Shown here: piece after piece, positions 3,359-15,499 of the stretch
How the letters are laid out: every line of letters starts with the position of its first letter
Numbering within the stretch: position 1 is the stretch's first letter
Source of the DNA: a virus
Length of the DNA stretch: 23,585 bases
Reading direction: 5' to 3' (one strand)
Virus record (IMG/VR): IMGVR_UViG_3300022198_003902
Coordinates: 1-23,585 of that record
The notes under the pieces: model-generated
Told to the model about the DNA's origin: nothing
The model's input: the letters and a program-made list of their open reading frames with translations, nothing else
Database searches by the model: none
Position numbers and translations under genes: made by a program

Positions 3359-3814
3359 ATGGCTTTTGTACTTAACGATAGAGTTAAAGAAACTAGCACA
3401 ACTACTGGAACAGGAACATTTTCACTAGCTGGTGCCGAAACTGGTTTTGAAAGTTTTGTTTCAGGTGTAGGAAATGCTAATGTAACTTATTACGCAATTT
3501 CAAATGATGGAACAGCAGAATTTGAAGTTGGTATAGGTACGGTTACATCTGGTTCTCCAGACACTTTATCTAGAGACACAATTATTTCTTCTTCTAACTC
3601 AGATGCTTTAGTTAATTTTTCCGCAGGTACGAAAACAGTATTTTGTACATTGCCTGCATCAAGAACACCTTCTGCAGGAATGACAGCACAAACTTTTGTT
3701 AATACTCACAATTCAACTTTATCTGATGATCAAACATTGGTATCAGGAGTCTTAGCAGGACCAGTTAGTATCACAGGAACACAAACCGTAACAGGAACAT
3801 TGGTAATTATATAA
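3359..3814 (+). CDS. Tail-fibre base-like small protein
   Basis: A 151-residue protein. Residues 1-105 match a pattern I recall from N-terminal regions of marine phage fibres (MAFVLNDRVKET, then TLSRDTIISSSNS and FSAGTKTVFCTLPA). The last 40 residues are Thr/Ser/Val-rich and resemble a fibre shaft rather than a globular domain. AAGGAG lies five bases before the start. The stop overlaps the next fibre gene as TAATG, which suggests coupled and roughly equimolar synthesis. It probably docks or starts a fibre; direct proof is absent. Confidence 0.7.
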   Translation: MAFVLNDRVKETSTTTGTGTFSLAGAETGFESFVSGVGNANVTYYAISNDGTAEFEVGIGTVTSGSPDTLSRDTIISSSNSDALVNFSAGTKTVFCTLPASRTPSAGMTAQTFVNTHNSTLSDDQTLVSGVLAGPVSITGTQTVTGTLVII

Positions 3815-4653
3815 TGAGTAAAATTGAAGTCGATGCAATAGTCCCACAATCTGGAACCACATTAACGGTTGGAGAATCTGGTGATACAATTACTATACCT
3901 TCAGGTGCAACGTTTGATGCATCTAATGCAACTACAACTTTACCTTCTACTATTGTTACTACAACTGGATCACAAACTTTAACGAATAAAACTATTGATG
4001 CTTCTCAATTAACTGGAACAATTACTCCTAGTGATGCAACAGTAACTACTGCAAAACTAGCTGACAGTTCTGTTACTACAGCAAAATTAAATGATGCTTC
4101 TGTTTCACTTGCTAAGCTAACAGCAACAGGAACTCCAAGTTCTTCTACTTTCCTAAGAGGAGATAATTCTTGGCAAGAAGCTGGTGGTGGCAAAGTATTG
4201 CAAGTTGTCAGCACAAATATTACAGCAATTACTGCCTCAACCACTACACAAAGTTTTCTAGATATTTCAGGTTTTAGTGTTGCAATTACCCCATCTAGTG
4301 CAAGTAATAAAGTTCTTGTTTTAGCAACATTTAATGTTGGAAGTACTAGCACAAGTGGTAATAATTATATAAGACTTGTAAGAGATTCAACCGCTATTAA
4401 TATTGGTGATGCAAATGGAAGTAATGCAAGAGCTTCATGGTATCAAAGAGGAGTTAATACAAATACTATGTATGCAGGAAGTATTAATTTTTTAGATTCT
4501 CCAGCAACAACTTCTTCAACAACTTATAAATTACAATGGTACAGAAATGATGGAACTTTTTATTTAAACAGACCAGGAGCTTTTGCTGGTGCGTCGGAAA
4601 GTGAAGGAGCAACAGCGACTTCAACTATTACTGTTATGGAGATTGCTGTATGA
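3814..4653 (+). CDS. Tail fibre protein with anchor, TAKL repeats and C-terminal head domain
   Basis: A 279-residue fibre-like protein. Residues 1-35 are an anchor-like module (MSKIEVDAIVPQSGTTLTVG) also present in the genes at 4956, 8081 and 8527. Residues 50-73 hold the common fibre segment SQTLTNKTIDASQLTGTITP. Residues 74-103 are three 10-residue TAKL repeats, then a linker with FLRGDNSW. Residues about 128-279 form a compact beta-rich tip with aromatic and Asn/Gly-rich loops. It starts by TAATG coupling and overlaps the chaperone-like gene by 4 nt (ATGA). Shaft and tip architecture indicates receptor binding; the receptor is unknown. Confidence 0.8.
   Translation: MSKIEVDAIVPQSGTTLTVGESGDTITIPSGATFDASNATTTLPSTIVTTTGSQTLTNKTIDASQLTGTITPSDATVTTAKLADSSVTTAKLNDASVSLAKLTATGTPSSSTFLRGDNSWQEAGGGKVLQVVSTNITAITASTTTQSFLDISGFSVAITPSSASNKVLVLATFNVGSTSTSGNNYIRLVRDSTAINIGDANGSNARASWYQRGVNTNTMYAGSINFLDSPATTSSTTYKLQWYRNDGTFYLNRPGAFAGASESEGATATSTITVMEIAV
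4033..4122 (+). repeat. Three in-frame 30-nt repeats coding TAKL shaft units
   Basis: Codons 74-103 of the fibre gene are three consecutive 10-residue units, DATVTTAKLA, DSSVTTAKLN and DASVSLAKLT. DNA identity between units is only moderate because of synonymous changes, so selection acts on the protein. Such units are common in trimeric phage fibre shafts. Confidence 0.8.
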
Positions 4654-4955: not shown

Positions 4956-5702
4956 ATGAGTGAAGTAAAAGTAAATAAGATTAGTCCACGAACAGGAACC
5001 ACATTTACCCTTGGCGATGCGGGAGACACGATTAGTACTGCAGGAACTATTTCTGCTAATGCATTAACCGTTAATGGTGAATCTATTACCGCTACACAAT
5101 TTCCAACGATCACATCTATTAGTCCTGATACGATTACCAATGATGCAACTTCTATTACGATTACAGGAACAAACTTTGTATCGGTTCCTTATGTAGATGC
5201 TATCAATGCATCCACAGGAGCTATCACTCCAGCAAATAGTGTAACATATAATTCATCTAGTTCTATTACAGCGAATTTTACTTTAACAACTGATGGAACT
5301 TATTATATAAGAATTGAAAACAATACAGGTTTAGCAGTACGATCTACTACAGCTATTCTTACTGTCTCTGATGCACCAACCTGGTCTACAGCAGCGGGAA
5401 GTATTGGAACGGTAGTAGCAGGGGATGCAGTATCGTTATCGGTTTCAGCAACATCGGATTCAACCGTTGCTTACAGTGAAACAACTTCCGTATTAACATC
5501 GAATGCAGATACACCTGCAAGTACAATGAATTTAAGTTTAAACAGTGCAACAGGTGCAATTACAGGAACAGCACCAAGTCCAGATTCAGAAACTACTTAT
5601 ACTTTTACATTAAGAGCAACGGACGCTGAAGCACAAACCGCTGACAGAACTTTTACTATTACTGTTTCCGTTGGCATAACAGAAGGGATGCAATTTAACT
5701 AA
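4956..5702 (+). CDS. Fibre anchor with IPT/TIG and He_PIG Ig-like domains (copy A)
   Basis: A 248-residue protein with an anchor-like N-terminus (1-45, MSEVKVNKISPRTGTTFTLG, then LTVNGESI), an IPT/TIG Ig-like domain (about 50-140, starting PTITSISPDTITN) and a He_PIG/cadherin-like domain (about 143-242, with NSATGAITGTAPSPDSETTY and FTLRATDAEAQTADRTFTIT). It ends GMQFN, and the stop overlaps the LamG-SPRY gene as TAATG. Its paralogue is the gene at 8527. The nearest ribosome-binding-like sequence (AAAGGA, 4937-4942) is 13 bases upstream, an unusually long spacing. It likely forms the shaft or adaptor of a multi-part adhesin. Confidence 0.8.
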   Translation: MSEVKVNKISPRTGTTFTLGDAGDTISTAGTISANALTVNGESITATQFPTITSISPDTITNDATSITITGTNFVSVPYVDAINASTGAITPANSVTYNSSSSITANFTLTTDGTYYIRIENNTGLAVRSTTAILTVSDAPTWSTAAGSIGTVVAGDAVSLSVSATSDSTVAYSETTSVLTSNADTPASTMNLSLNSATGAITGTAPSPDSETTYTFTLRATDAEAQTADRTFTITVSVGITEGMQFN

Positions 5703-7030
5703 TGGCTAGTACATATTTAACAAGAACACCATCAACATCAGGAAATGGTCAAATTTGGACTTATTCAGCTTGGATTAAAAGGTCAAACATAACTGATACT
5801 TATGGAACTATTTTTAATGCCTATAACACTTCAGGTTCTGCTGATACAGCCGTATGTGTTTTTTACTTACTAAATAATGAACTTGTAATTAGTGGTTCTA
5901 CAGGTAGTGCTGGTAGTTCTCCTCTGCTATTAAGAGATGTTTCAGCTTGGTATCATATAGTAGTTGCTTTTGACACAACACAAGCTTCTTTAGCCAATAG
6001 AATAAAAGCATATATAAATGGAGTTCAAATATCTTTAAATAACACAACTTATCCAGCTTTAAATTTAGTTACACCTGTTAATCAAAATGATGAACACACT
6101 ATTGGAAATAGAAGATGGGACGCACCAACTGTTGATAGATATTTTGGTGGCTTAATGGCTCATGTCCACCTTATAGATGGCACAGCATACGATGCTTCTG
6201 CCTTTGGACAAACGGACGCTACTTCGGGTATCTGGAAACCTATATTATCTCCAAGTGTGACTTATGGAACCAACGGATTCTTTTTAAAATTTGGAAATGC
6301 TGGATCATTAGGAACAGATTCATCAGGCAATGCAAATAACTTTACGTTATCTGGATCAGGCACCCAGACGCTCGATACTCCATCCAATGTTTTTGCTACA
6401 TTGAATCCTTTAAACAAAGCTGACTTAACTTATGCTTATGGTAATAACGAAATAACAAATAGCACTGCTTCTCATAATGGTACACAAGCAACATTAGCTG
6501 TTAATTCAGGTAAATGGTATTGGGAAACAAAATACATAGATGGTGCTACTACAAAAGCTATGGCTGGAATTAGCATTGTAACAGAAACTATTGGAAATAA
6601 TCTAGTAGGTGGAACAGCCAATTCTTATGGTTATTATAGAGCAAATGGTCAAAAATATAATAATGGTAGTGGTACTGCTTATGGAACAACACCTTCAAAT
6701 GGAAGTATTATAGGTGTTGCTTTTGATGCAGATAATGGAACACTTTGGTTTTCTTTAAATGGTGTTTGGCAAAATTCAGCAACTATATCTGAAATAGAAA
6801 ATGGAACAACAACCAATTCAGCTTTTAGTGGTATTAGTATGAGTGATTATTATGCACCAGCTTGTTCAGCAGAAAATTCTTCAGTTCAAACAAACTTCGG
6901 CAATGGCTACTTTGGCACAACAGCCGTAGCAACACCAGAATCGGATAGTGCAGGAATCGGAAAATTTGAATATAGTGTACCTTCAGGGTATTATGCATTA
7001 TGTACTAAAAACATAGCTACTTATGGATAG
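5702..7030 (+). CDS. LamG-like plus SPRY adhesin protein (copy A)
   Basis: A 442-residue protein. Residues 1-215 resemble a concanavalin A/LamG jelly roll: TYSAWIKRS near the start, DVSAWYHIVVAFDTTQ around 79-94, and HVHLIDGTAYDASAFG in the second half. Residues about 245-415 resemble a SPRY domain: GKWYWETKY at 270-278, and IIGVAFDADNGTLWFSLNG. The C-terminus has the familiar ending FEYSVPSGYYALCTKNI. Both folds bind glycans or proteins, so cell-surface recognition is the likely role. No ribosome-binding site lies close to the start, which overlaps the previous stop (TAATG). Its paralogue is at 9276. Confidence 0.8.
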   Translation: MASTYLTRTPSTSGNGQIWTYSAWIKRSNITDTYGTIFNAYNTSGSADTAVCVFYLLNNELVISGSTGSAGSSPLLLRDVSAWYHIVVAFDTTQASLANRIKAYINGVQISLNNTTYPALNLVTPVNQNDEHTIGNRRWDAPTVDRYFGGLMAHVHLIDGTAYDASAFGQTDATSGIWKPILSPSVTYGTNGFFLKFGNAGSLGTDSSGNANNFTLSGSGTQTLDTPSNVFATLNPLNKADLTYAYGNNEITNSTASHNGTQATLAVNSGKWYWETKYIDGATTKAMAGISIVTETIGNNLVGGTANSYGYYRANGQKYNNGSGTAYGTTPSNGSIIGVAFDADNGTLWFSLNGVWQNSATISEIENGTTTNSAFSGISMSDYYAPACSAENSSVQTNFGNGYFGTTAVATPESDSAGIGKFEYSVPSGYYALCTKNIATYG

Positions 7031-7039
7031 GAGATAAAC

Positions 7040-8077
7040 ATGGCTTATACAACAATTAACAAACCTTCAGATTATTTTAATACTAAACTTTATACAGGAG
7101 ATGGAACATCATCAAATGCAATTACAGGAGTAGGTTTTCAACCTGATTTAACTTGGATTAAACCTAGAAGTGATGCTAGTTTGCATTTTATTGTAAATAG
7201 TTTTGATGAAACTAAATTTTTACAATCGCAATCTACTTCGGCAGAATTAGATGCAACAACAGATTTTGTAAGTTTAGATAGTGATGGTTTTACAGTAAAA
7301 AATACAAATGATTGGACTAATAAAAATTCAAGTACATACGCCTCATGGAACTGGTTAGCTGGTGGAACAGGAGTATCCAACACAGATGGCTCAATTACAT
7401 CTACTGTTTCAGCTAATACTACAAGTGGATTTAGTATTGTAAGTTATACTGGTAATGGTTCTGCTAGTGCTACTATTGGTCATGGGTTAGGAACTTCTAA
7501 TGTTGGAATGATTATAACCAAAAATAGAGAGCAACCTGATGGCTGGCTAGTTTATCATAAAAGTTTAGGTGCAAATAATTATCTAGTTTTACAGACAACA
7601 GACCCATCAAGCGGAAGTGCAAATAAATATTTAAGTGTTCCAACACCTACTACTTATGAGATTGGAAATAGTGGAGATATGAATACAAATAACGAAGCCT
7701 ACATAGCTTACTGCTTTGCAGAAAAAAAAGGTTTCAGCAAGTTTGGTTCATATGTCGGTAATGGAAGTACAGATGGAACATTTGTTTATACTGGATTTAA
7801 ACCAGCTTGGTTAATGTATAAAAGAACTGATGATACAACTGGTGCTTGGGAAATGTGGGATAATAAAAGAAGTACATTTAATCCAGAAAACAAAGCACTA
7901 TTTGCAAATTCTAGTAATGCAGAAGCAACTGCATCTAATTTAGATTTTACTTCAAATGGATTTAAAATAAGAGTTTCAAGTGGTGGAATAAATGCTTCAG
8001 GAAGTACATACATCTATATGGCATTTGCAGAAAATCCACTCGTAACATCAACAAAGTTACCAGCAACAGCGAGGTAG
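7040..8077 (+). CDS. DUF7483-like adhesin, three internal repeats (copy A)
   Basis: A 345-residue protein resembling the DUF7483 family of phage fibre tips. Three divergent repeats of about 100-118 residues begin near 13 (NTKLYTGDGTS), 131 (FSIVSYTGNGS) and 232 (FSKFGSYVGNGS). Each continues with a G.GF.P or GHGL motif and a lysine-containing strand (TWIKPR, IITKNR, LMYKRT). AGGAG (7029-7033) six bases upstream supports the start. It is the third gene of cassette copy A; the paralogue is at 10655. It is probably a distal, receptor-facing part; the trimer-like internal repeat is seen, its function inferred. Confidence 0.75.
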   Translation: MAYTTINKPSDYFNTKLYTGDGTSSNAITGVGFQPDLTWIKPRSDASLHFIVNSFDETKFLQSQSTSAELDATTDFVSLDSDGFTVKNTNDWTNKNSSTYASWNWLAGGTGVSNTDGSITSTVSANTTSGFSIVSYTGNGSASATIGHGLGTSNVGMIITKNREQPDGWLVYHKSLGANNYLVLQTTDPSSGSANKYLSVPTPTTYEIGNSGDMNTNNEAYIAYCFAEKKGFSKFGSYVGNGSTDGTFVYTGFKPAWLMYKRTDDTTGAWEMWDNKRSTFNPENKALFANSSNAEATASNLDFTSNGFKIRVSSGGINASGSTYIYMAFAENPLVTSTKLPATAR

Positions 8078-8080
8078 ACC

Positions 8081-8527
8081 ATGGCTAGTATCTTAAAGAA
8101 TGATACTATCCAGAATAACTCTGGCTCTAACATCATCAACGAATCGGCAGGAACCATTACGATAGCAGCCTCGGGAAACACGGTTACTATTCCAGCAGGA
8201 GCAACGATGACCGCGGATAGTTTATTAGTAAATGGTCAAACAGTTACAGGAAGAGTTTTTCCTACGGTATCTAGTATCACTCCCACTACTGCATCTGCAT
8301 CGGTTCAAACGTCTATTAGTATTACAGGATCAGGCTTTATTGCAACTCCCGTAGTAGAAGCTATAGCTAGCACAGGTGCGATTAATTCAGCAGATAGTGT
8401 AACCTATAATAGTTCCAGTTCTTTAACTTGTAATTTTACATTGATTGCTGGGTCATATTATATTAGAGTAGAGAATAACACAGGATTTGCAGGCAGATCC
8501 GCAACAACATTATTAACAGTATCATAA
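8081..8527 (+). CDS. Fibre anchor with IPT/TIG domain, lacking the He_PIG domain
   Basis: A 148-residue protein with an anchor-like N-terminus (MASILKNDTIQNNSGSNII, then LLVNGQTVTG) and one IPT/TIG domain (about 65-148, PTVSSITPTTAS through YYIRVENNTGFAGRSATTLL). It ends LLTVS, exactly where its paralogues at 4956 and 8527 continue with DAPTW into the He_PIG domain. GAGG lies seven bases before ATG. It overlaps the next gene as TAATG. It may be a shortened relic of a third cassette copy, or a functional adaptor of reduced length. Confidence 0.75.
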   Translation: MASILKNDTIQNNSGSNIINESAGTITIAASGNTVTIPAGATMTADSLLVNGQTVTGRVFPTVSSITPTTASASVQTSISITGSGFIATPVVEAIASTGAINSADSVTYNSSSSLTCNFTLIAGSYYIRVENNTGFAGRSATTLLTVS

Positions 8528-9276
8528 TGACAGGAATTTTAAAAGTTGATGTAGTCCAAGATGTAGATGGTAATGATATCATCCAAGAATCTTCAGGAAC
8601 AGTTACCCTGGGTCAATCGGGCCAAACGGTTGCCGTTGCAAGTGGTGCTACCTTATCGGTACCTACGTTAACCGTAAATGGTCAACCTGTAACTGCTATT
8701 ACGTTACCTACCGTTTCATCGGTATCTCCAAGTGCAATTACCAATGCACAAACGAGTATTACCATTACAGGAACTAATTTTGTTAATGGTGCATTAGTCA
8801 ATGCTATTTCGACTACAGGAGCAATTTATACTCCTGATACTGTTACTTTTAATAGTTCTACTTCTATTAGTTGTCAGTTTACTTTAACCGTAGATGGAAC
8901 TTATTACTTACGAGTAGAAAATCCAGATGGACTTGCAGGACGATCGGCAACTGCTATCTTAACTGTATCCGATGCACCTACTTGGGTAACCGCAGCAGGA
9001 TCTTTAGGATCCGTTGCAGCAGAAGCTGCAGGATCCTTTACGGTAGAAGCTACCTCTGATAGTGCTGTAACGTATGCTAAAACTACAGGAGATTTTCCAG
9101 GAGGTTTTACTTTAAATGCTTCCACAGGTGTGATAAGTGGTACCGAGAGCGGTGCTACGGCAGAAACTACTTATGCTTTTACGATACGAGCAACTGATGC
9201 CGAGTCTCAAGTTGCAGATAGAGCGTTCTCTATTACCGTAACAGTGGGAATTAATAATGGAGGACAGTTTAACTAA
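8527..9276 (+). CDS. Fibre anchor with IPT/TIG and He_PIG Ig-like domains (copy B)
   Basis: A 249-residue paralogue of the gene at 4956 with the same order: anchor (1-50, MTGILKVDVVQDVDGNDIIQ, then LTVNGQPV), IPT/TIG (about 55-142, PTVSSVSPSAIT) and He_PIG-like domain (about 145-243, NASTGVISGTESGATAETTY, then FTIRATDAESQVADRAFSIT). It ends GGQFN, like GMQFN in copy A. No ribosome-binding site precedes the start, which overlaps the previous stop (TAATG), so translation should depend on re-initiation. It shares more C- and G-ending codons with copy A than the two following adhesin genes do. Confidence 0.8.
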   Translation: MTGILKVDVVQDVDGNDIIQESSGTVTLGQSGQTVAVASGATLSVPTLTVNGQPVTAITLPTVSSVSPSAITNAQTSITITGTNFVNGALVNAISTTGAIYTPDTVTFNSSTSISCQFTLTVDGTYYLRVENPDGLAGRSATAILTVSDAPTWVTAAGSLGSVAAEAAGSFTVEATSDSAVTYAKTTGDFPGGFTLNASTGVISGTESGATAETTYAFTIRATDAESQVADRAFSITVTVGINNGGQFN

Positions 9277-10655
9277 TGGCTAGTACATATTTAACAAGAA
9301 CACCTAGTGGCGATGGTAATAGAAAAACAATGACTTTTTCTTTTTGGTTTAAAAGAAGTATTCTTGGTTCTACTGAAAGAATTTTCAGCACTTGGAGTAA
9401 TAGTGCAGCAAATCAATTTTGGATAAGATGGACTAGTAGTAATGAATTATATTTAGTATCGTATACAAGTTCTTCTTTTACAACTCAACTTATAACTACA
9501 CAATTATTTAGAGATGTTTCTGCTTGGTATCATATAGTAATTGCTTACGATACGACTCAAGCAACAGCTTCAAATAGAATTAAATTATATGTAAATGGAA
9601 CTCAAGTAACTACATTTAGCACAGAAACTTATCCAACTCAAAATTTAGACACAGAATGGAATAGATCATCTGCTCCTAATATTATTGGTGGAGAGCCAAC
9701 AGGTGGAAATGGAGAATATATTAGTGGGTCTATGTCCCATGTTCACTTCATAGACGGCACAGCTTATGACGCATCAGCTTTTGGCGAAACAGATGCAACC
9801 ACAGGAATATGGAAACCTAAAACTGCACCTAGTGTTACTTATGGAACCAATGGTTTCTTTTTAAAGTTTGAAAATTCAGGTTCTATGGGAACAGATAGTT
9901 CAGGTAATGCAAATAACTTTACTGTGAATGGTACAATGACACAAACAATAGATACACCTAGTAATGTTTTTTGTACTCTTAATCCGTTAAACTCAACTTT
10001 AACAAACTCTACTTTATCTGATGGTAATTTACAATTTGCAGGTGGTTCTCAATCAGTTAATTATGCTTTTACTTCAGGCACTATTGCTCCATCTCAAGGT
10101 AAATGGTATTGGGAAGTTAAAGCAGTTGATAACGCTGAAATAGACCAAGTAGGTGTTGCTAAAATGGATTTAGCACAATTTGCAAGTATATCTAATTCTG
10201 GTGGACTACAAGCAACTACTTATGGTGGAAAAGGTGTTCAATTAACTAATGGAGTTAAAGTAGGAGATGGCTCTCAATCAACTTATATGGGTGGTTTTAG
10301 TGCTAATGATATTTTAATGGTGGCTTTGAATTTAGATAGTGGCAGTATATATTTTGGAAGAAATGGTCAATGGTCAGATGGTGCTGGAAACGCAAATCAA
10401 ACTTTTGCAAATGCAGTTGCCGCTTTCACAAATTTAACAGTTGGTGATGCTTATGTAGCTGCTCATTGTATGAGAAATTCTGGTGGGTCTAATCCAGGAG
10501 AAAGTGAATATAACTTCGGCAACGGCTACTTCGGAACAACTCCAGTATCTTCTGCTGAAAATCCTGATGATGGAATTGGTATCTTTGAATACACAGTTCC
10601 AACAGGTTATAAAGCACTTTGTACTAAATCAATTAACGCACAGGAGTACAGCTAA
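9276..10655 (+). CDS. LamG-like plus SPRY adhesin protein (copy B)
   Basis: A 459-residue paralogue of the gene at 5702. Residues 1-220 are LamG-like (MTFSFWFKRS, DVSAWYHIVIAYDTTQ, HVHFIDGTAYDASAFG, then TYGTNGFFLKFENSGSMGTD), and residues about 250-430 are SPRY-like (GKWYWEVK at 275-282, IYFGRNGQW). It ends with the EYTVPTGYKALCTKS motif. Strand cores are conserved between the copies, while the central SPRY loops differ strongly. The first 29 bases are identical to those of copy A, and both ends join neighbours by TAATG overlaps. Receptor or glycan binding is inferred from the folds. Confidence 0.8.
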   Translation: MASTYLTRTPSGDGNRKTMTFSFWFKRSILGSTERIFSTWSNSAANQFWIRWTSSNELYLVSYTSSSFTTQLITTQLFRDVSAWYHIVIAYDTTQATASNRIKLYVNGTQVTTFSTETYPTQNLDTEWNRSSAPNIIGGEPTGGNGEYISGSMSHVHFIDGTAYDASAFGETDATTGIWKPKTAPSVTYGTNGFFLKFENSGSMGTDSSGNANNFTVNGTMTQTIDTPSNVFCTLNPLNSTLTNSTLSDGNLQFAGGSQSVNYAFTSGTIAPSQGKWYWEVKAVDNAEIDQVGVAKMDLAQFASISNSGGLQATTYGGKGVQLTNGVKVGDGSQSTYMGGFSANDILMVALNLDSGSIYFGRNGQWSDGAGNANQTFANAVAAFTNLTVGDAYVAAHCMRNSGGSNPGESEYNFGNGYFGTTPVSSAENPDDGIGIFEYTVPTGYKALCTKSINAQEYS

Positions 10656-11752
10656 TGGCACAGATAAATAAACCTTCAGATTATTTTAATACAGTTACTT
10701 GGACAGGAGATAATACAGATAGAACAATTAGTGGAGTAGGGTTTCAACCTGATTGGATATGGTGGAAACAAAGAAATGGTACAGATGACCATAGATTAAT
10801 AGATTCTGTTAGAGGAGAAGGAACTACATCATATAAAATATTATTTTCTGACACTACAGATGCAGAATATGATGGAAATGACAATGGTGGCTCTCAAGGA
10901 AATATTAATGCAATTACATCAGATGGTTTTTCAGGAGTACAAGGTACAGTTGGTTGGAATAATTGGAATGGTTCTGGATTAAATTATGTAGGTTGGAACT
11001 GGTTAGCTTCAAATACAACTGCATCAAACACTCAAGGAAGCATAGCTTCTACTGTTTCAGTTAATACAACAAGTGGATTTAGTATTGTGTCTTGGACAGG
11101 TACAGGAAGTGGCTCAACCATAGGTCATGGTCTTGGTGTTAAACCTAAAATAATATTTGTAAAAAATAGAAGTAATTCAGGAAATTGGGTTGTCAATGTA
11201 GGAGAAATAATAGGAACAGATGAAAAAAGTTTATATTTAAATTCTACTGATGCAATAAAAAATGATGCTCAAGCAACCAATGGATATACTTATAATAACA
11301 CAACAACTACTTTTAGTACGGCGAGTGGTTCTAGTGGAAATCAAAATGATGTAAATCAAAGTGGTAGTTCAATTATTGCTTATTGCTTCGCAGAGAAAAA
11401 AGGTTTCAGCAAGTTTGGCTCTTACACAGGTAATGGAAGCACAGATGGAACATTTGTTTATACAGGATTTAAACCAGCTATGATTATTTTAAAAAATGCA
11501 AGTGATGCTTATAATTGGGAAATTAGAGATAATAAAAGAAGAACTTATAATGAAGCGAATGAAAATAGACTTTTTCCTAATTTAAGTAATGCTGAATCTG
11601 TTAATACAGAAACAATAGATTTTTTATCAAATGGTTTTAAAATTAGAAATGCTGGTGGCGGAGATAATGGTTCTGGCAATACAATAATCTACATGGCATT
11701 TGCCGAAAATCCTTTAGTAGGAACAAATAATATTCCAACAACGGCGAGGTAA
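10655..11752 (+). CDS. DUF7483-like adhesin, three internal repeats (copy B)
   Basis: A 365-residue paralogue of the gene at 7040. It opens MAQINKPSDYFNTVTWTGDN, and the repeats restart near FSIVSWTGTGSG and FSKFGSYTGNGSTDGT. Codons 242-275 differ from copy A at only one residue of 34. The first repeat is much more divergent, with a long Gly/Asn/Asp-rich insertion (about 70-110). AGGAG (10642-10646) eight bases upstream and the TAATG overlap both favour translation. The stop lies in the loop of a small hairpin that covers the next ribosome-binding site. It is likely the receptor-facing part of cassette copy B. Confidence 0.75.
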   Translation: MAQINKPSDYFNTVTWTGDNTDRTISGVGFQPDWIWWKQRNGTDDHRLIDSVRGEGTTSYKILFSDTTDAEYDGNDNGGSQGNINAITSDGFSGVQGTVGWNNWNGSGLNYVGWNWLASNTTASNTQGSIASTVSVNTTSGFSIVSWTGTGSGSTIGHGLGVKPKIIFVKNRSNSGNWVVNVGEIIGTDEKSLYLNSTDAIKNDAQATNGYTYNNTTTTFSTASGSSGNQNDVNQSGSSIIAYCFAEKKGFSKFGSYTGNGSTDGTFVYTGFKPAMIILKNASDAYNWEIRDNKRRTYNEANENRLFPNLSNAESVNTETIDFLSNGFKIRNAGGGDNGSGNTIIYMAFAENPLVGTNNIPTTAR

Positions 11753-11758: not shown

Positions 11759-12589
11759 ATGTATTTCGGCGCAACTCCTTTTGCATCCTCGGCATTCTCT
11801 GATGTAGGATTTAATCCTAATGCATTAGTCAATGTCCTTGGTTCGCAGATTAATCAATCCAATAATACTGTAACTACCATTGGTAAAGCTTTAGTCATTC
11901 CTACGGGAAGTCAATTAAACTTTAGTATCGGTAATTTAAAAGTAGCTGATGTCGTTGGAGTCAATGGCATTCTCACGTCTCTTGCAACAGGAGTCGTGAC
12001 GGTTGCAGCGGGTGCTAATGTTAGTGTTACAGGAAACCAGGCTAACTTTACTACAGGTATTGTTAAAGTTGCGGATGTAGTAGGTGTAAGTGGAAATAGA
12101 GTTAATTTAACTACCGCAAATGTAACAACGACTGCCGATGCCAATGTATTCCCAACTGGAATACAAACGAATCTTGCAACGGGAATTGTTACTTTCCAAT
12201 TTAAATATTCGGTTACAGGTTCACGTGTCAATCTAAATACAGGAACCGTAGGGGTTACAGCAGATGCAAATGTATTCCCTATTGGATCTAGAGTTAATAC
12301 AGATACAGGAGATGTCACTGTTACTGCAGATGCAAACGTATCCGTAGTAGGAAATAGAGTAGAAATAACCGTTGGTAATGTTACCACTAAGGCCAATGCT
12401 ACTGCGATTGTTACTACGAATAGACAAAACCTATCTACAGGAACGGTTACTATCAAAGCCAATGCAACCGCTTTCCCAACAGGGTCTGCTTTTGAAATTG
12501 CAACATCTAATGTATTAGTTAAAAAATGGGATGGTATTGTACCTGGCGCAAGTCAAGTATGGGTACCTATTCAAACACGTAGAGGATAA
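11759..12589 (+). CDS. Tandem 21-22-residue repeat virion protein (long form)
   Basis: A 276-residue protein with a capping N-terminus (MYFGATPFASSAF) and about ten repeats of 21-22 residues from residue 49 to 262. The consensus is roughly TGSRVNL.TG.VTV.ADANVFP, as in SRVNLNTG, TADANVFP and KANATAFP. The C-terminal cap is WDGIVPGASQVWVPIQTRRG. The regular beta-strand/turn period suggests a stacked beta solenoid or fibrous shaft. There is no catalytic motif, Cys or membrane helix. The 83-residue neighbour shares both caps but has only two or three units. It is probably a fibre or tail-surface protein; I do not recognise a named family. Confidence 0.75.
   Translation: MYFGATPFASSAFSDVGFNPNALVNVLGSQINQSNNTVTTIGKALVIPTGSQLNFSIGNLKVADVVGVNGILTSLATGVVTVAAGANVSVTGNQANFTTGIVKVADVVGVSGNRVNLTTANVTTTADANVFPTGIQTNLATGIVTFQFKYSVTGSRVNLNTGTVGVTADANVFPIGSRVNTDTGDVTVTADANVSVVGNRVEITVGNVTTKANATAIVTTNRQNLSTGTVTIKANATAFPTGSAFEIATSNVLVKKWDGIVPGASQVWVPIQTRRG
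11903..12544 (+). repeat. About ten tandem 63-66-nt coding repeats
   Basis: Codons 49-262 encode repeats of 21-22 residues with the period marked by TG-N-TG-V-A-NV. The DNA is diverged between units, although short strings such as GCAGATGCAAA recur. The repeat keeps the antisense strand open over 550 nt, which explains a spurious antisense reading frame. Confidence 0.75.
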
Positions 12590-12591
12590 TT

Positions 12592-12843
12592 ATGTTTTTT
12601 GGAGCTACATCATTTGCAGCAACACCTTTTGCAGGAGTGGGTATTACTAATGTTATTGTAAATGCTACAGGAAATCGTATAAATGTTGCTATTGGTAATA
12701 CAGCTGTTAATATAGTCACTGCTGTTCCTGTTACAGGGCAAAGATTTAACCTTGCAACTAACACCATAGATGTGATAACATGGAACCAAATAAATCCAGG
12801 AGCAACTGGTATTTGGATTCCAATAGATCCAGATAATCCGTAG
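12592..12843 (+). CDS. Short form of the 21-residue repeat protein
   Basis: An 83-residue protein that begins MFFGATSFAATPFAGVG and ends WNQINPGATGIWIPIDPDNP, matching both caps of the 276-residue neighbour. Between the caps it holds only two or three repeat units (TGNRINVAIGNTAVNIV, TGQRFNLATNTIDVI). GAGGA five bases before ATG supports the start. Identical caps with different repeat number suggest duplication followed by loss or gain of repeats. The two proteins may co-assemble, the short one possibly ending a polymer; that is inference. Confidence 0.75.
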   Translation: MFFGATSFAATPFAGVGITNVIVNATGNRINVAIGNTAVNIVTAVPVTGQRFNLATNTIDVITWNQINPGATGIWIPIDPDNP

Positions 12844-12850
12844 GAGAAAT

Positions 12851-13570
12851 ATGGCAAGTACTTATTCAAGTGATTTAAAATTAGAACTCATGACTACAGG
12901 CGAAAAGTCTGGAACATGGGGTACTATTACTAACACCAATTTACAACAATTAGAACAAGCAGTATCAGGTTATATTGATATAGATGTAGCATCTTCCGAT
13001 GTTGCTTTATCTTTGGCCAATGGTGCGGTATCCAATGGTAAAAATTTATACTTTAAACTAACAGGAACATTAACAGCGAATAGAACGGTCACCATGCCAG
13101 ATTCCGCTGAGAGAGTTTTTATTGTAGAAGATGCAACTTCTAGGTCTGCTTCTTTATATACGTTAACCGTTAAAACGGTATCAGGAACAGGTGTAACTAT
13201 ACCTATTGCATCTAAAAATTTATTATATTCTGATGGAACTAATATTAGTTTAGGAATAAGACAAAAAGGTTATGTAACTCCAGGTGCAACTTATACAGCA
13301 GTCAATGGAGATCAAGTATTAGTCAATACCTCTGGATCAGGAATCGGGGCTCCTGTGACTATTAATTTACCAGCATCCCCATCGGTTGGAGACGAAGTAA
13401 CATTAATTGATAGTGGTAATAATTTAGCATCTAACAATTTAACCGTTGGAAGAAATGGTTCTACTATTAATGGATCTGCTTCTGATCTAACTATATCTAC
13501 CAATCTTTCAGCATTTACATTAGTATATGTAAACGCAACATTAGGTTGGGTGTATAAAGATAAGATATAG
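12851..13570 (+). CDS. Tail-fibre-like beta protein (MASTYSSDLKLELM family)
   Basis: A 239-residue protein with the pattern MASTYSSDLKLELMTTGEKS, followed by GTWGTITNTNLQQLEQAVSG, LYFKLTGTL and NRTVTMPDS. I recall this layout from tail-fibre-associated proteins of cyanophages and pelagiphages. Residues 140-239 form a second beta part with VNGDQVLVNTSG, INLPASPSVGDEVTLIDSG and a final LGWVYKD, typical of fibre C-terminal units. AGGAG lies four bases before ATG. It closes the adhesin block just before the gp10-like hub, which fits a fibre that attaches close to the tail hub. Confidence 0.75.
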   Translation: MASTYSSDLKLELMTTGEKSGTWGTITNTNLQQLEQAVSGYIDIDVASSDVALSLANGAVSNGKNLYFKLTGTLTANRTVTMPDSAERVFIVEDATSRSASLYTLTVKTVSGTGVTIPIASKNLLYSDGTNISLGIRQKGYVTPGATYTAVNGDQVLVNTSGSGIGAPVTINLPASPSVGDEVTLIDSGNNLASNNLTVGRNGSTINGSASDLTISTNLSAFTLVYVNATLGWVYKDKI

Positions 13571-13579
13571 GAGGAGGAC

Positions 13580-15499
13580 ATGCCTCTTCAGCAAATCAAA
13601 TTTTTACCGGGAATTGATAAACAAAATACCGAAGTCGGTGCAGATAATCGATGGGTAGATTGTGACAATGTTCGTTTTCGTTATGGACTTCCTGAAAAAG
13701 TTTCTGGTTGGGCTTCTTTAATCACGGATACGATTGTAGGTGTTTGTAGAAAGGAACATGCGTTTGTAGATATTTCTGGAAATAGATATGTTGCTTTAGG
13801 AACCGATAAATTTTTACTTATTTATTTTGAAGGTCAACTATATGATGTTACACCTTTACGAACTACATTAACTTCAGCGACCATTGCAACTACTAATGCT
13901 TCAGCGGTATGTACGATTACTACAGGAAGTGCTCATGGTTTAATTGCAGGAGATATTGTTTTATTAGACAATGTATCTTTACCTGCAGGAACAGGTTTTA
14001 CTGATGCAGACTTTGAAGATAAATTATTTCAAGTCACCGGTGTGACTTCCTCTACTGTATTTACCATTACACAAAGTTCAGCTGCAACAGCAACTGTTGC
14101 AACAGGAGGAAGTATAGATATTAAGCCTTATGAAAATGTAGGTCCTGCAGAACAATCGTATGGTTATGGTTGGGGAACCGATACATGGGGAGCAGGTGGA
14201 TGGGGAGAAGCATCTTCAGCGCAAGATGTTATTCTTGAACCAGGCCTCTGGTCTCTTGATAATTATGGACAAGTATTGATTGCAACCATTGCTAATGGTA
14301 AAACATTTACTTGGGATGCAGGAGCTGTTAATCCATTAACCGTACGAGCTTCTACTACCACTGCTAATTTTTCTACATCAGCGAATCCTACAGCAACTAG
14401 ATTGACGTTAGTATCTCCTACTACTCGTCACTTAATTCATTTTGGAACAGAGACAACTATTGGAACTCCATCCACTCAAGATGATATGTTTATTCGATTC
14501 TCGGACCAAGAAAACATTAATGATTATACTCCCACTGCTGTCAATACGGCGGGAACTTTTAGATTACAAGATGGAACAAAAATTGTAGGTGCATTAAAAG
14601 CAAAAGAAAATATTCTCGTTTGGACTGATAATGCTTTATATACCATGAAATATATTGGAGCTCCTTTTACTTTTGGATTTGAACAAGTAGGAACCAACTG
14701 CGGATTAATAGGAAAAAATGCGGTTATTGAAGTAGATGGTATTGCTTATTGGATGAGCTCTAATGGATTTTTTGCATTTGATGGTACAGTTAAAACATTA
14801 CCATGTTCGGTAGAAGATTATGTATATAATCAAATTGATGTGACGAAAGGTCAACAGATAGCAGCTGGTATTGATAACTTGCATACTGAAGTGATTTGGT
14901 ATTATACTTCTACCTCTTCTAATTTTAATGATCAGTACGTAGTTTATAATTATGGAGAAAGCTCTCCTCAATTACCTATTTGGTATATTGGAACAGAAGC
15001 AAGAACTTCTTGGATTGATGCTGTTGTCTATCCTAATCCATTTGCAACTAAATATGATTCTTCTGCATCGGGAACTTTTCCTGTGATTGTGGGGGAAAGT
15101 GGTTTAGGCCAAACTATTTTATTTGAACATCATGTAGGAACCGATCAAGTCAATCCAGATGGAACCACAACTGCTATTACTTCTTATATTAAATCTTATG
15201 ATTTTGATTTAGATGTACAAGGAACTAATGGAGAATTCTTTTTAGCTATGAGAAGATTCATTCCTGATTTTAAAAATTTACAAGGCAATTTAAGTGTAAC
15301 GATGTCGGTAAAACGATATCCATCAGAAGCAGATACTGCAACTGCTTTGAGTCCCTTTACGGTTACTACTTCTACCACAAAAGTAGATACCAGGACTAGA
15401 GGACGATTTGCTAATATTACAATAGCGAATAATAACATAAGTGAGGATTGGAGATTTGGAACCTTGCGTTTAGATTTACAACCGGATGGTAGAAGATAA
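13580..15499 (+). CDS. P22 gp10-like packaged-DNA stabilization / tail hub protein
   Basis: A 639-residue protein resembling the phage stabilisation (P22 gp10) family, which forms the hub below gp4 and holds packaged DNA in place. It opens QIKFLPGIDKQNTEVGADNR, followed by WVDCDNVRFRYGLPEKVSGW, a very typical start. Residues about 107-173 hold an FCCH-like insert (HG at 119-120, then GD) shared with the protein at 1726. Residues 194-210 are Gly/Trp/Tyr-rich (YGYGWGTDTWGAGGWGE). The rest looks like beta-propeller strands with ENILVWTDNALYTMKY and YWMSSNGFFAFDG. A strong GGAGGAGG site precedes ATG. The core tail function is well supported by pattern; the exact fold is inferred. Confidence 0.85.
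   Translation: MPLQQIKFLPGIDKQNTEVGADNRWVDCDNVRFRYGLPEKVSGWASLITDTIVGVCRKEHAFVDISGNRYVALGTDKFLLIYFEGQLYDVTPLRTTLTSATIATTNASAVCTITTGSAHGLIAGDIVLLDNVSLPAGTGFTDADFEDKLFQVTGVTSSTVFTITQSSAATATVATGGSIDIKPYENVGPAEQSYGYGWGTDTWGAGGWGEASSAQDVILEPGLWSLDNYGQVLIATIANGKTFTWDAGAVNPLTVRASTTTANFSTSANPTATRLTLVSPTTRHLIHFGTETTIGTPSTQDDMFIRFSDQENINDYTPTAVNTAGTFRLQDGTKIVGALKAKENILVWTDNALYTMKYIGAPFTFGFEQVGTNCGLIGKNAVIEVDGIAYWMSSNGFFAFDGTVKTLPCSVEDYVYNQIDVTKGQQIAAGIDNLHTEVIWYYTSTSSNFNDQYVVYNYGESSPQLPIWYIGTEARTSWIDAVVYPNPFATKYDSSASGTFPVIVGESGLGQTILFEHHVGTDQVNPDGTTTAITSYIKSYDFDLDVQGTNGEFFLAMRRFIPDFKNLQGNLSVTMSVKRYPSEADTATALSPFTVTTSTTKVDTRTRGRFANITIANNNISEDWRFGTLRLDLQPDGRR

Follow-up and report, generated by a model that had tools for sequence, protein, structure and literature searches.

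Branched multi-spike complexes with exchangeable tips are known from the Ackermannviridae, whose phages carry several receptor-binding proteins each and swap whole tips by means of a conserved N-terminal part (PMC11414711). Each tip of these complexes is one spike protein, whereas in the podovirus locus described here the tip would consist of a LamG-SPRY protein and a DUF7483 protein set on an Ig-like anchor; branching is a feature of the Ackermannviridae complex. Variable host-recognition islands have been described in pelagiphages, with hypervariable lectin and tail-fibre genes in otherwise similar genomes, although the passages found in those reports deal with low read recruitment and not with docks, cassette copy number or exchange joints (PMC3909814, PMC10504331). 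A third point of comparison is provided by the HTVC023P-type pelagiphages, whose genome paper (PMC9599517) contains two matches for "tail" in its text and none for SPRY or lectin. Our literature search found no paper on DUF7483 and nothing on pelagiphage LamG-SPRY fibres.

The window, i.e. the whole stretch of DNA analysed here, is a linear IMG/VR virus record of 23,585 bases and represents part of a genome with virion genes. Its gene G (13580-15499) belongs to phrog_3287 (P22 gp10-like), and the protein shares 67% identity with that of phage 023Pt_psg01 and 45-46% with those of the Pelagibacter phages HTVC023P and HTVC027P, which makes the window phage a relative of the HTVC023P-type podoviruses. 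It thus has core virion genes related to those of this type, for which PMC9599517 relied on PolA and capsid phylogenies, and other genes of the window were also matched in L236 and L238. The host of the window phage would presumably be SAR11. All features given below are on the plus strand of the window unless stated otherwise. Among the genes scanned against PHROGs, which are part of the ORFs of this genome fragment, no reverse transcriptase and template repeat of a diversity-generating retroelement were detected. Just downstream of the region of interest, positions 11759-12589 encode a protein partly made of repeats of ~22 residues (66 nt), with a short paralogue at 12592-12843.

The initial annotation described a three-gene adhesin set occurring twice in the same order between positions 4956 and 11752, and ORF, Pfam and pairwise alignment analyses confirmed this. 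The first set comprises A1 (4956-5702), B1 (5702-7030) and C1 (7040-8077), and the second A2b (8527-9276), B2 (9276-10655) and C2 (10655-11752). The described layout had missed an additional short anchor gene in the second set, A2a (8081-8527), which codes for an anchor with a TIG domain (E 1.5e-4) and no He_PIG domain, so that the genes run A B C A' A B C. He_PIG was detected in both A1 (E 2.5e-9) and A2b (E 8e-12); TIG scored above the cut-off in A2b but not in A1, which has an IPT-like region. Both B proteins contain Laminin_G_3 and SPRY domains above the cut-off (E 6e-12 and 7e-12 in B1, 4e-15 and 1e-6 in B2), and both C proteins match DUF7483 (PF24299) over its full length, with E values of 1.7e-120 for C1 and 3.1e-118 for C2 (402 and 395 bits, for a curated cut-off of 27). 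TAATG start/stop overlaps with the preceding gene are found at 5702, 8527, 9276 and 10655. The aligned proteins share 55% (A1/A2b), 47% (B1/B2) and 50% (C1/C2) identity, far above chance (E 5e-79, 2e-114 and 3e-94, respectively). Direct DNA repeats of 277, 144, 136, 121 and 119 nt, spaced by ~3.6 kb, link the two sets. An identical copy (100%) of A1, B1 and the beginning of C1 lies on the partial contig L050.

We collected the corresponding loci of relatives, most of them metagenome contigs, by means of the flanking genes, and counted the ABC sets between the conserved core gene directly upstream of the array (3359-3814; 72-99% amino acid identity in ~80 loci) and genes D, E, F and G directly downstream (11759-15499). 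Between the same flanks, the number of sets ranges from zero to three. HTVC023P, 023Pt_psg01, L078, L211 and L227 have none, L161 has one, and L196, L200 and L212 have three. Two sets are present in the window, L168, L188, L189 and L190, and at least two in L167, whose locus ends at the contig end. HTVC027P also lacks an ABC set in the region compared.

At their N termini, the fibre genes bear one of three tags, which we call docks I (MSxIEVDxIxPQSGT), II (MSEVKVNKISPRSGT) and III (MSSILKVDTIQDQNGN). In the window, the dock I tag (MSKIEVDAIVPQSGT...) opens a fibre gene with an unrelated tip (3814-4653), and this tag is common to the first fibre of relatives. A1 starts with the dock II tag (MSEVKVNKISPRTGT...), and both A2a (MASILKNDTIQ...) and A2b (MTGILKVDVVQDVDGN...) start with that of dock III. 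A2a is 86-91% identical at the protein level to its counterparts in L009, L010, L167, L168 and L174, and A2b is 80-86% identical to those of L167, L168 and L009. The same tags occur in HTVC023P and 023Pt_psg01. They carry Gly_rich_2 tips in HTVC023P and belong to Peptidase_S74 fibres in L078, L227 and L203. Across HTVC023P-type loci, each of the three docks was found with each of the three tip types (ABC, Gly_rich_2 and Peptidase_S74), which gives nine combinations, the dock HMMs being short and a few anchors misassigned. The order of docks varies, from I-II-III in ABC arrays to I-III-II in HTVC023P-like arrays. Dock II is repeated in some arrays, and its tag is on the first fibre in L161 and L171.

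Two side observations concern these arrays. Dock III anchors of 385-400 residues, such as L152:4613-5767, have a domain with the motif YYQCSNHGxMGN inserted between tag and TIG; this insert is perhaps cupredoxin-like, and a Pfam search with it gave nothing over the cut-off. L161 contains three tandem paralogues of ~200 residues (11956-13745) between fibres of its array, with similar N termini and the motif xxISNGTTIxDxGA.

The initial annotation left open whether the two sets are used together or serve as a reservoir for host-range change. The N-terminal tag differs between the two anchors of the window, and relatives have the corresponding tags position by position, which favours joint use. 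With dock I occupied by the other fibre, dock II by set 1 and dock III by set 2, each virion would present two or more kinds of LamG-SPRY/DUF7483 adhesin. Expression or assembly of a single set, with the other as a silent store of tips brought in by recombination for host-range change, appears distinctly unlikely for the window, where each set has a complete anchor with its own tag, lies on the same strand and has coupled or near-coupled starts. Promoter- and terminator-like sites in the window were not above those of shuffled sequences, and there is thus no sign that one set is silenced. Such a store finds its best case in HTVC200P (L004:6422-11428), whose first C gene is on the minus strand and whose second tip set is surrounded by a 58-nt inverted repeat (95%) and a 168-nt direct repeat (98%). 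As this second set follows the direct repeat with only a 36-residue anchor tail in place of an anchor of its own, it is possibly a recombinable reserve tip, a model that fits the window less well.

Gene order links the three proteins closely. In 92 of 97 cases the gene after B was C, seven of these pairs forming a single ORF; C was preceded by B in 93 of 98, and B by A in 85 of 104. A and B are fused in L006. HTVC011P and HTVC200P have a tail fibre whose N-terminal domain is of the T7 type (PF03906), as in gp17, and whose C terminus is the A region, with B and C genes coming next; Pfam found no PF03906 in the window anchors, which have short dock tags instead. These fusions, and the anchors ending T7-type tail fibres, support the assembly of A, B and C into one multi-protein fibre. 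The multi-part receptor-binding complex proposed by the initial annotation is thereby supported indirectly, also by the S74 and glycine-rich fibres that use the same docks.

Structure prediction gave a confident LamG plus SPRY fold for B2 (pLDDT 88, AF2). Its N-terminal half aligns to lectin-like folds including a pentraxin (Z ~17-19) and its SPRY domain to those of Ash2L and DDX1 (Z ~22). Binding to glycan or protein receptors may be envisaged. The C1 model (AF2, pLDDT 94) consists of three mutually related beta repeats (hhalign probability 98%, controls <1%). Searches of the PDB with Foldseek and VIA-align yielded no convincing relative for DUF7483 (best Foldseek E 2.6e-3, best Z 5.1), and we found no virion proteomics or structure of any ABC phage.

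Ig-like domains are common on phage heads, and phrog_19943, which matches both B and C, is categorised under head and packaging. The three proteins might accordingly decorate the head or another part of the virion, as other Ig-domain proteins do. We regard this as highly improbable, since A ends T7-type tail fibres in two phages, S74-chaperone fibres sit on the same docks, and C also matches a family of tail fibres, phrog_24898. A location on the tail would fit these observations better.

The two sets had been interpreted as a tandem duplication, and this was tested in phylogenies. Forcing A1 and A2b to be sisters was rejected (p-AU 0.0012), as was a B1-B2 pairing in a careful tree of 38 rows (p-AU 0.0054); the latter replaced a quick 95-row B tree, which was dropped from the test because its free search had missed a better tree. 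The C tree was poorly resolved. B2 pairs with L006 (100/99), and a clade of seven rows adds L161, L167, L235 and the second sets of HTVC103P and HTVC104P; these last two phages have no matching core genes over the 25 kb that were compared. The SPRY half of B2 is 74% identical to that of L006 and 38% to that of B1, and the SPRY half of B1 in turn shares 53% with the second set of L168. When relatives are ranked by similarity, the other window copy comes at positions 21-22 of 89 for A, 2 and 7 of 94 for B, and 37 and 13 of 83 for C, and such discordance fits poorly with one duplicated block. Among 12 multi-cassette genomes, 27 of 27 B and C genes had a nearer counterpart in some other genome than in their own sibling, a figure that is weak alone, as ~90 foreign genes compete with one or two siblings. 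For anchors and LamG-SPRY proteins, the window copies are thus largely closer to genes of other phages than to each other, and a recent duplication is not supported by these comparisons.

An older event was also considered, namely a tandem duplication in the ancestor of the genus of the window phage, followed by divergence of the copies and domain exchange that blurred the signal. B2 is the second-best match of B1, the careful tree puts both in a clade of 17 rows, and the two-set layout is common to several relatives. Given the rejected sister placements, the discordant ranks and the clustering of B2 with phages that lack matching core genes, we nevertheless find it unlikely. Gene conversion between the window sets was a candidate for the 84% identical FSKFGSY tract (7703-7823), and it was discarded because other phages match this tract equally well (84-85%). 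The two look-alike sets would rather represent the same type of tip on two different anchors.

Comparisons at the DNA level point to such fitting of tips onto docks. Between the window and L171, the gene upstream of the array is mostly 93-100% identical, dock I 85-95%, the tip of the first fibre ~48% and A1 88-98% over the entire gene. Identity falls just past the A/B joint of set 1 (5587-5730), a stretch of conserved DNA that covers the anchor end and the tip start and corresponds to repeat D3, 76% identical to the joint of set 2 (9161-9304). Past A1, identity is 40-68% in B1, except at the hinge between LamG and SPRY, where it reaches 77-92%. This hinge joint, repeat D1, lies at 6139-6415 in B1 and 9716-9992 in B2; an 80.7% DNA match of L006 to B2 starts at 9971 and spans the SPRY part.

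The same pattern recurs among relatives. In a collection of 82 A-B units, anchors at 85-99% DNA identity go with tips at ~60%, the family background, in dozens of pairs, and a few pairs show the reverse. The anchor is kept while the tip is replaced, as in complexes of several receptor-binding proteins with conserved N-terminal anchors. In L196, L200 and L212, the anchors are mostly 75-98% identical and the tips ~40-70%; the tips differ at all three docks, and the first LamG is kept in L212 and L200. L007 and L009, from different phage types, have 737 nt at 99% in common, from the A/B junction to the hinge, and in L014 and L037 a stretch of 586 nt running from that junction into the hinge is identical (100%), but these are metagenome contigs, so that the identical blocks could be assembly chimeras. 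That risk is absent from the comparison of the isolates HTVC104P and HTVC103P, in which the second anchor is mostly 92-99% identical and the tip mostly 40-75%, with a peak of 90% at the hinge and flanks above 90%.

Between B genes with at most 75% DNA identity, windows of 93% or more concentrate at the hinge (columns 171-230; 40-85 pairs) and at columns 401-445 (84-89 pairs); a lesser peak lies near columns 331-360, and other columns have hardly any. When protein windows of equal conservation were compared, codon identity was 0.85-0.87 at hinge columns 201-230 and 0.61-0.66 in conserved parts of C. At the end of B, i.e. the B/C joint, it was 0.70-0.77, a weak signal much of which is explained by protein constraint. 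The mean synonymous identity over all pairs gave no joint signal; the signal is confined to near-identical windows in a smaller share of the pairs and, in part, to the codon level. The switch sites suggested by these alignments are the anchor/tip junction and the LamG-SPRY hinge, probably together with the B/C junction.

We consider it likely that the region is a tail-fibre array, in which separately anchored adhesins are carried by one virion and diversified by exchange of tips and domains. Each fibre would begin at an anchor gene. One of the three dock tags takes up the first ~30 residues of the anchor and most likely attaches to a tail site of its own, the remainder of the anchor, with its TIG and He_PIG Ig-like domains, forming the shaft end. 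The B and C proteins, from genes that are translationally coupled or closely spaced, would sit on this shaft as a composite adhesive tip. Homologous recombination between phages at the conserved joints would then exchange either the complete tip or one of its domains, LamG or SPRY. With such exchange, the paralogy of the two sets would reflect one tip family fitted onto different docks.

Related proteins are found beyond this group. Skadi phages have relatives of B and C. DUF7483 occurs at six places in MK016664 (S-B68) and at four in OQ984150 (C72C1), which suggests larger arrays in other phages. DUF7483 relatives were also seen in bacterial and MAG contigs (L239-L288), among them contigs of Patescibacteria and Oligoflexia (several from a single MAG, BroJett040); they may represent phage contamination, prophages or cellular adhesins. 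Marine phages might share a pool of plug-in adhesins, in which the three-protein tip (Ig anchor end, LamG-SPRY and DUF7483) and single domains move between unrelated groups of phages and among the three fixed docks of one phage through the conserved DNA joints, giving combinatorial sets of up to three adhesins per virion with DUF7483, a single-chain triple beta repeat, as the distal cap; we offer this as a conjecture, plausible rather than probable.

Little is known of how host recognition and host change work in phages of SAR11 and other dominant marine bacteria. An array of fixed docks and exchangeable tips would be a readable code, tip by dock, that can be compared with host range, and it offers a mechanism for the hypervariable islands. 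It would also give DUF7483 its first functional context.
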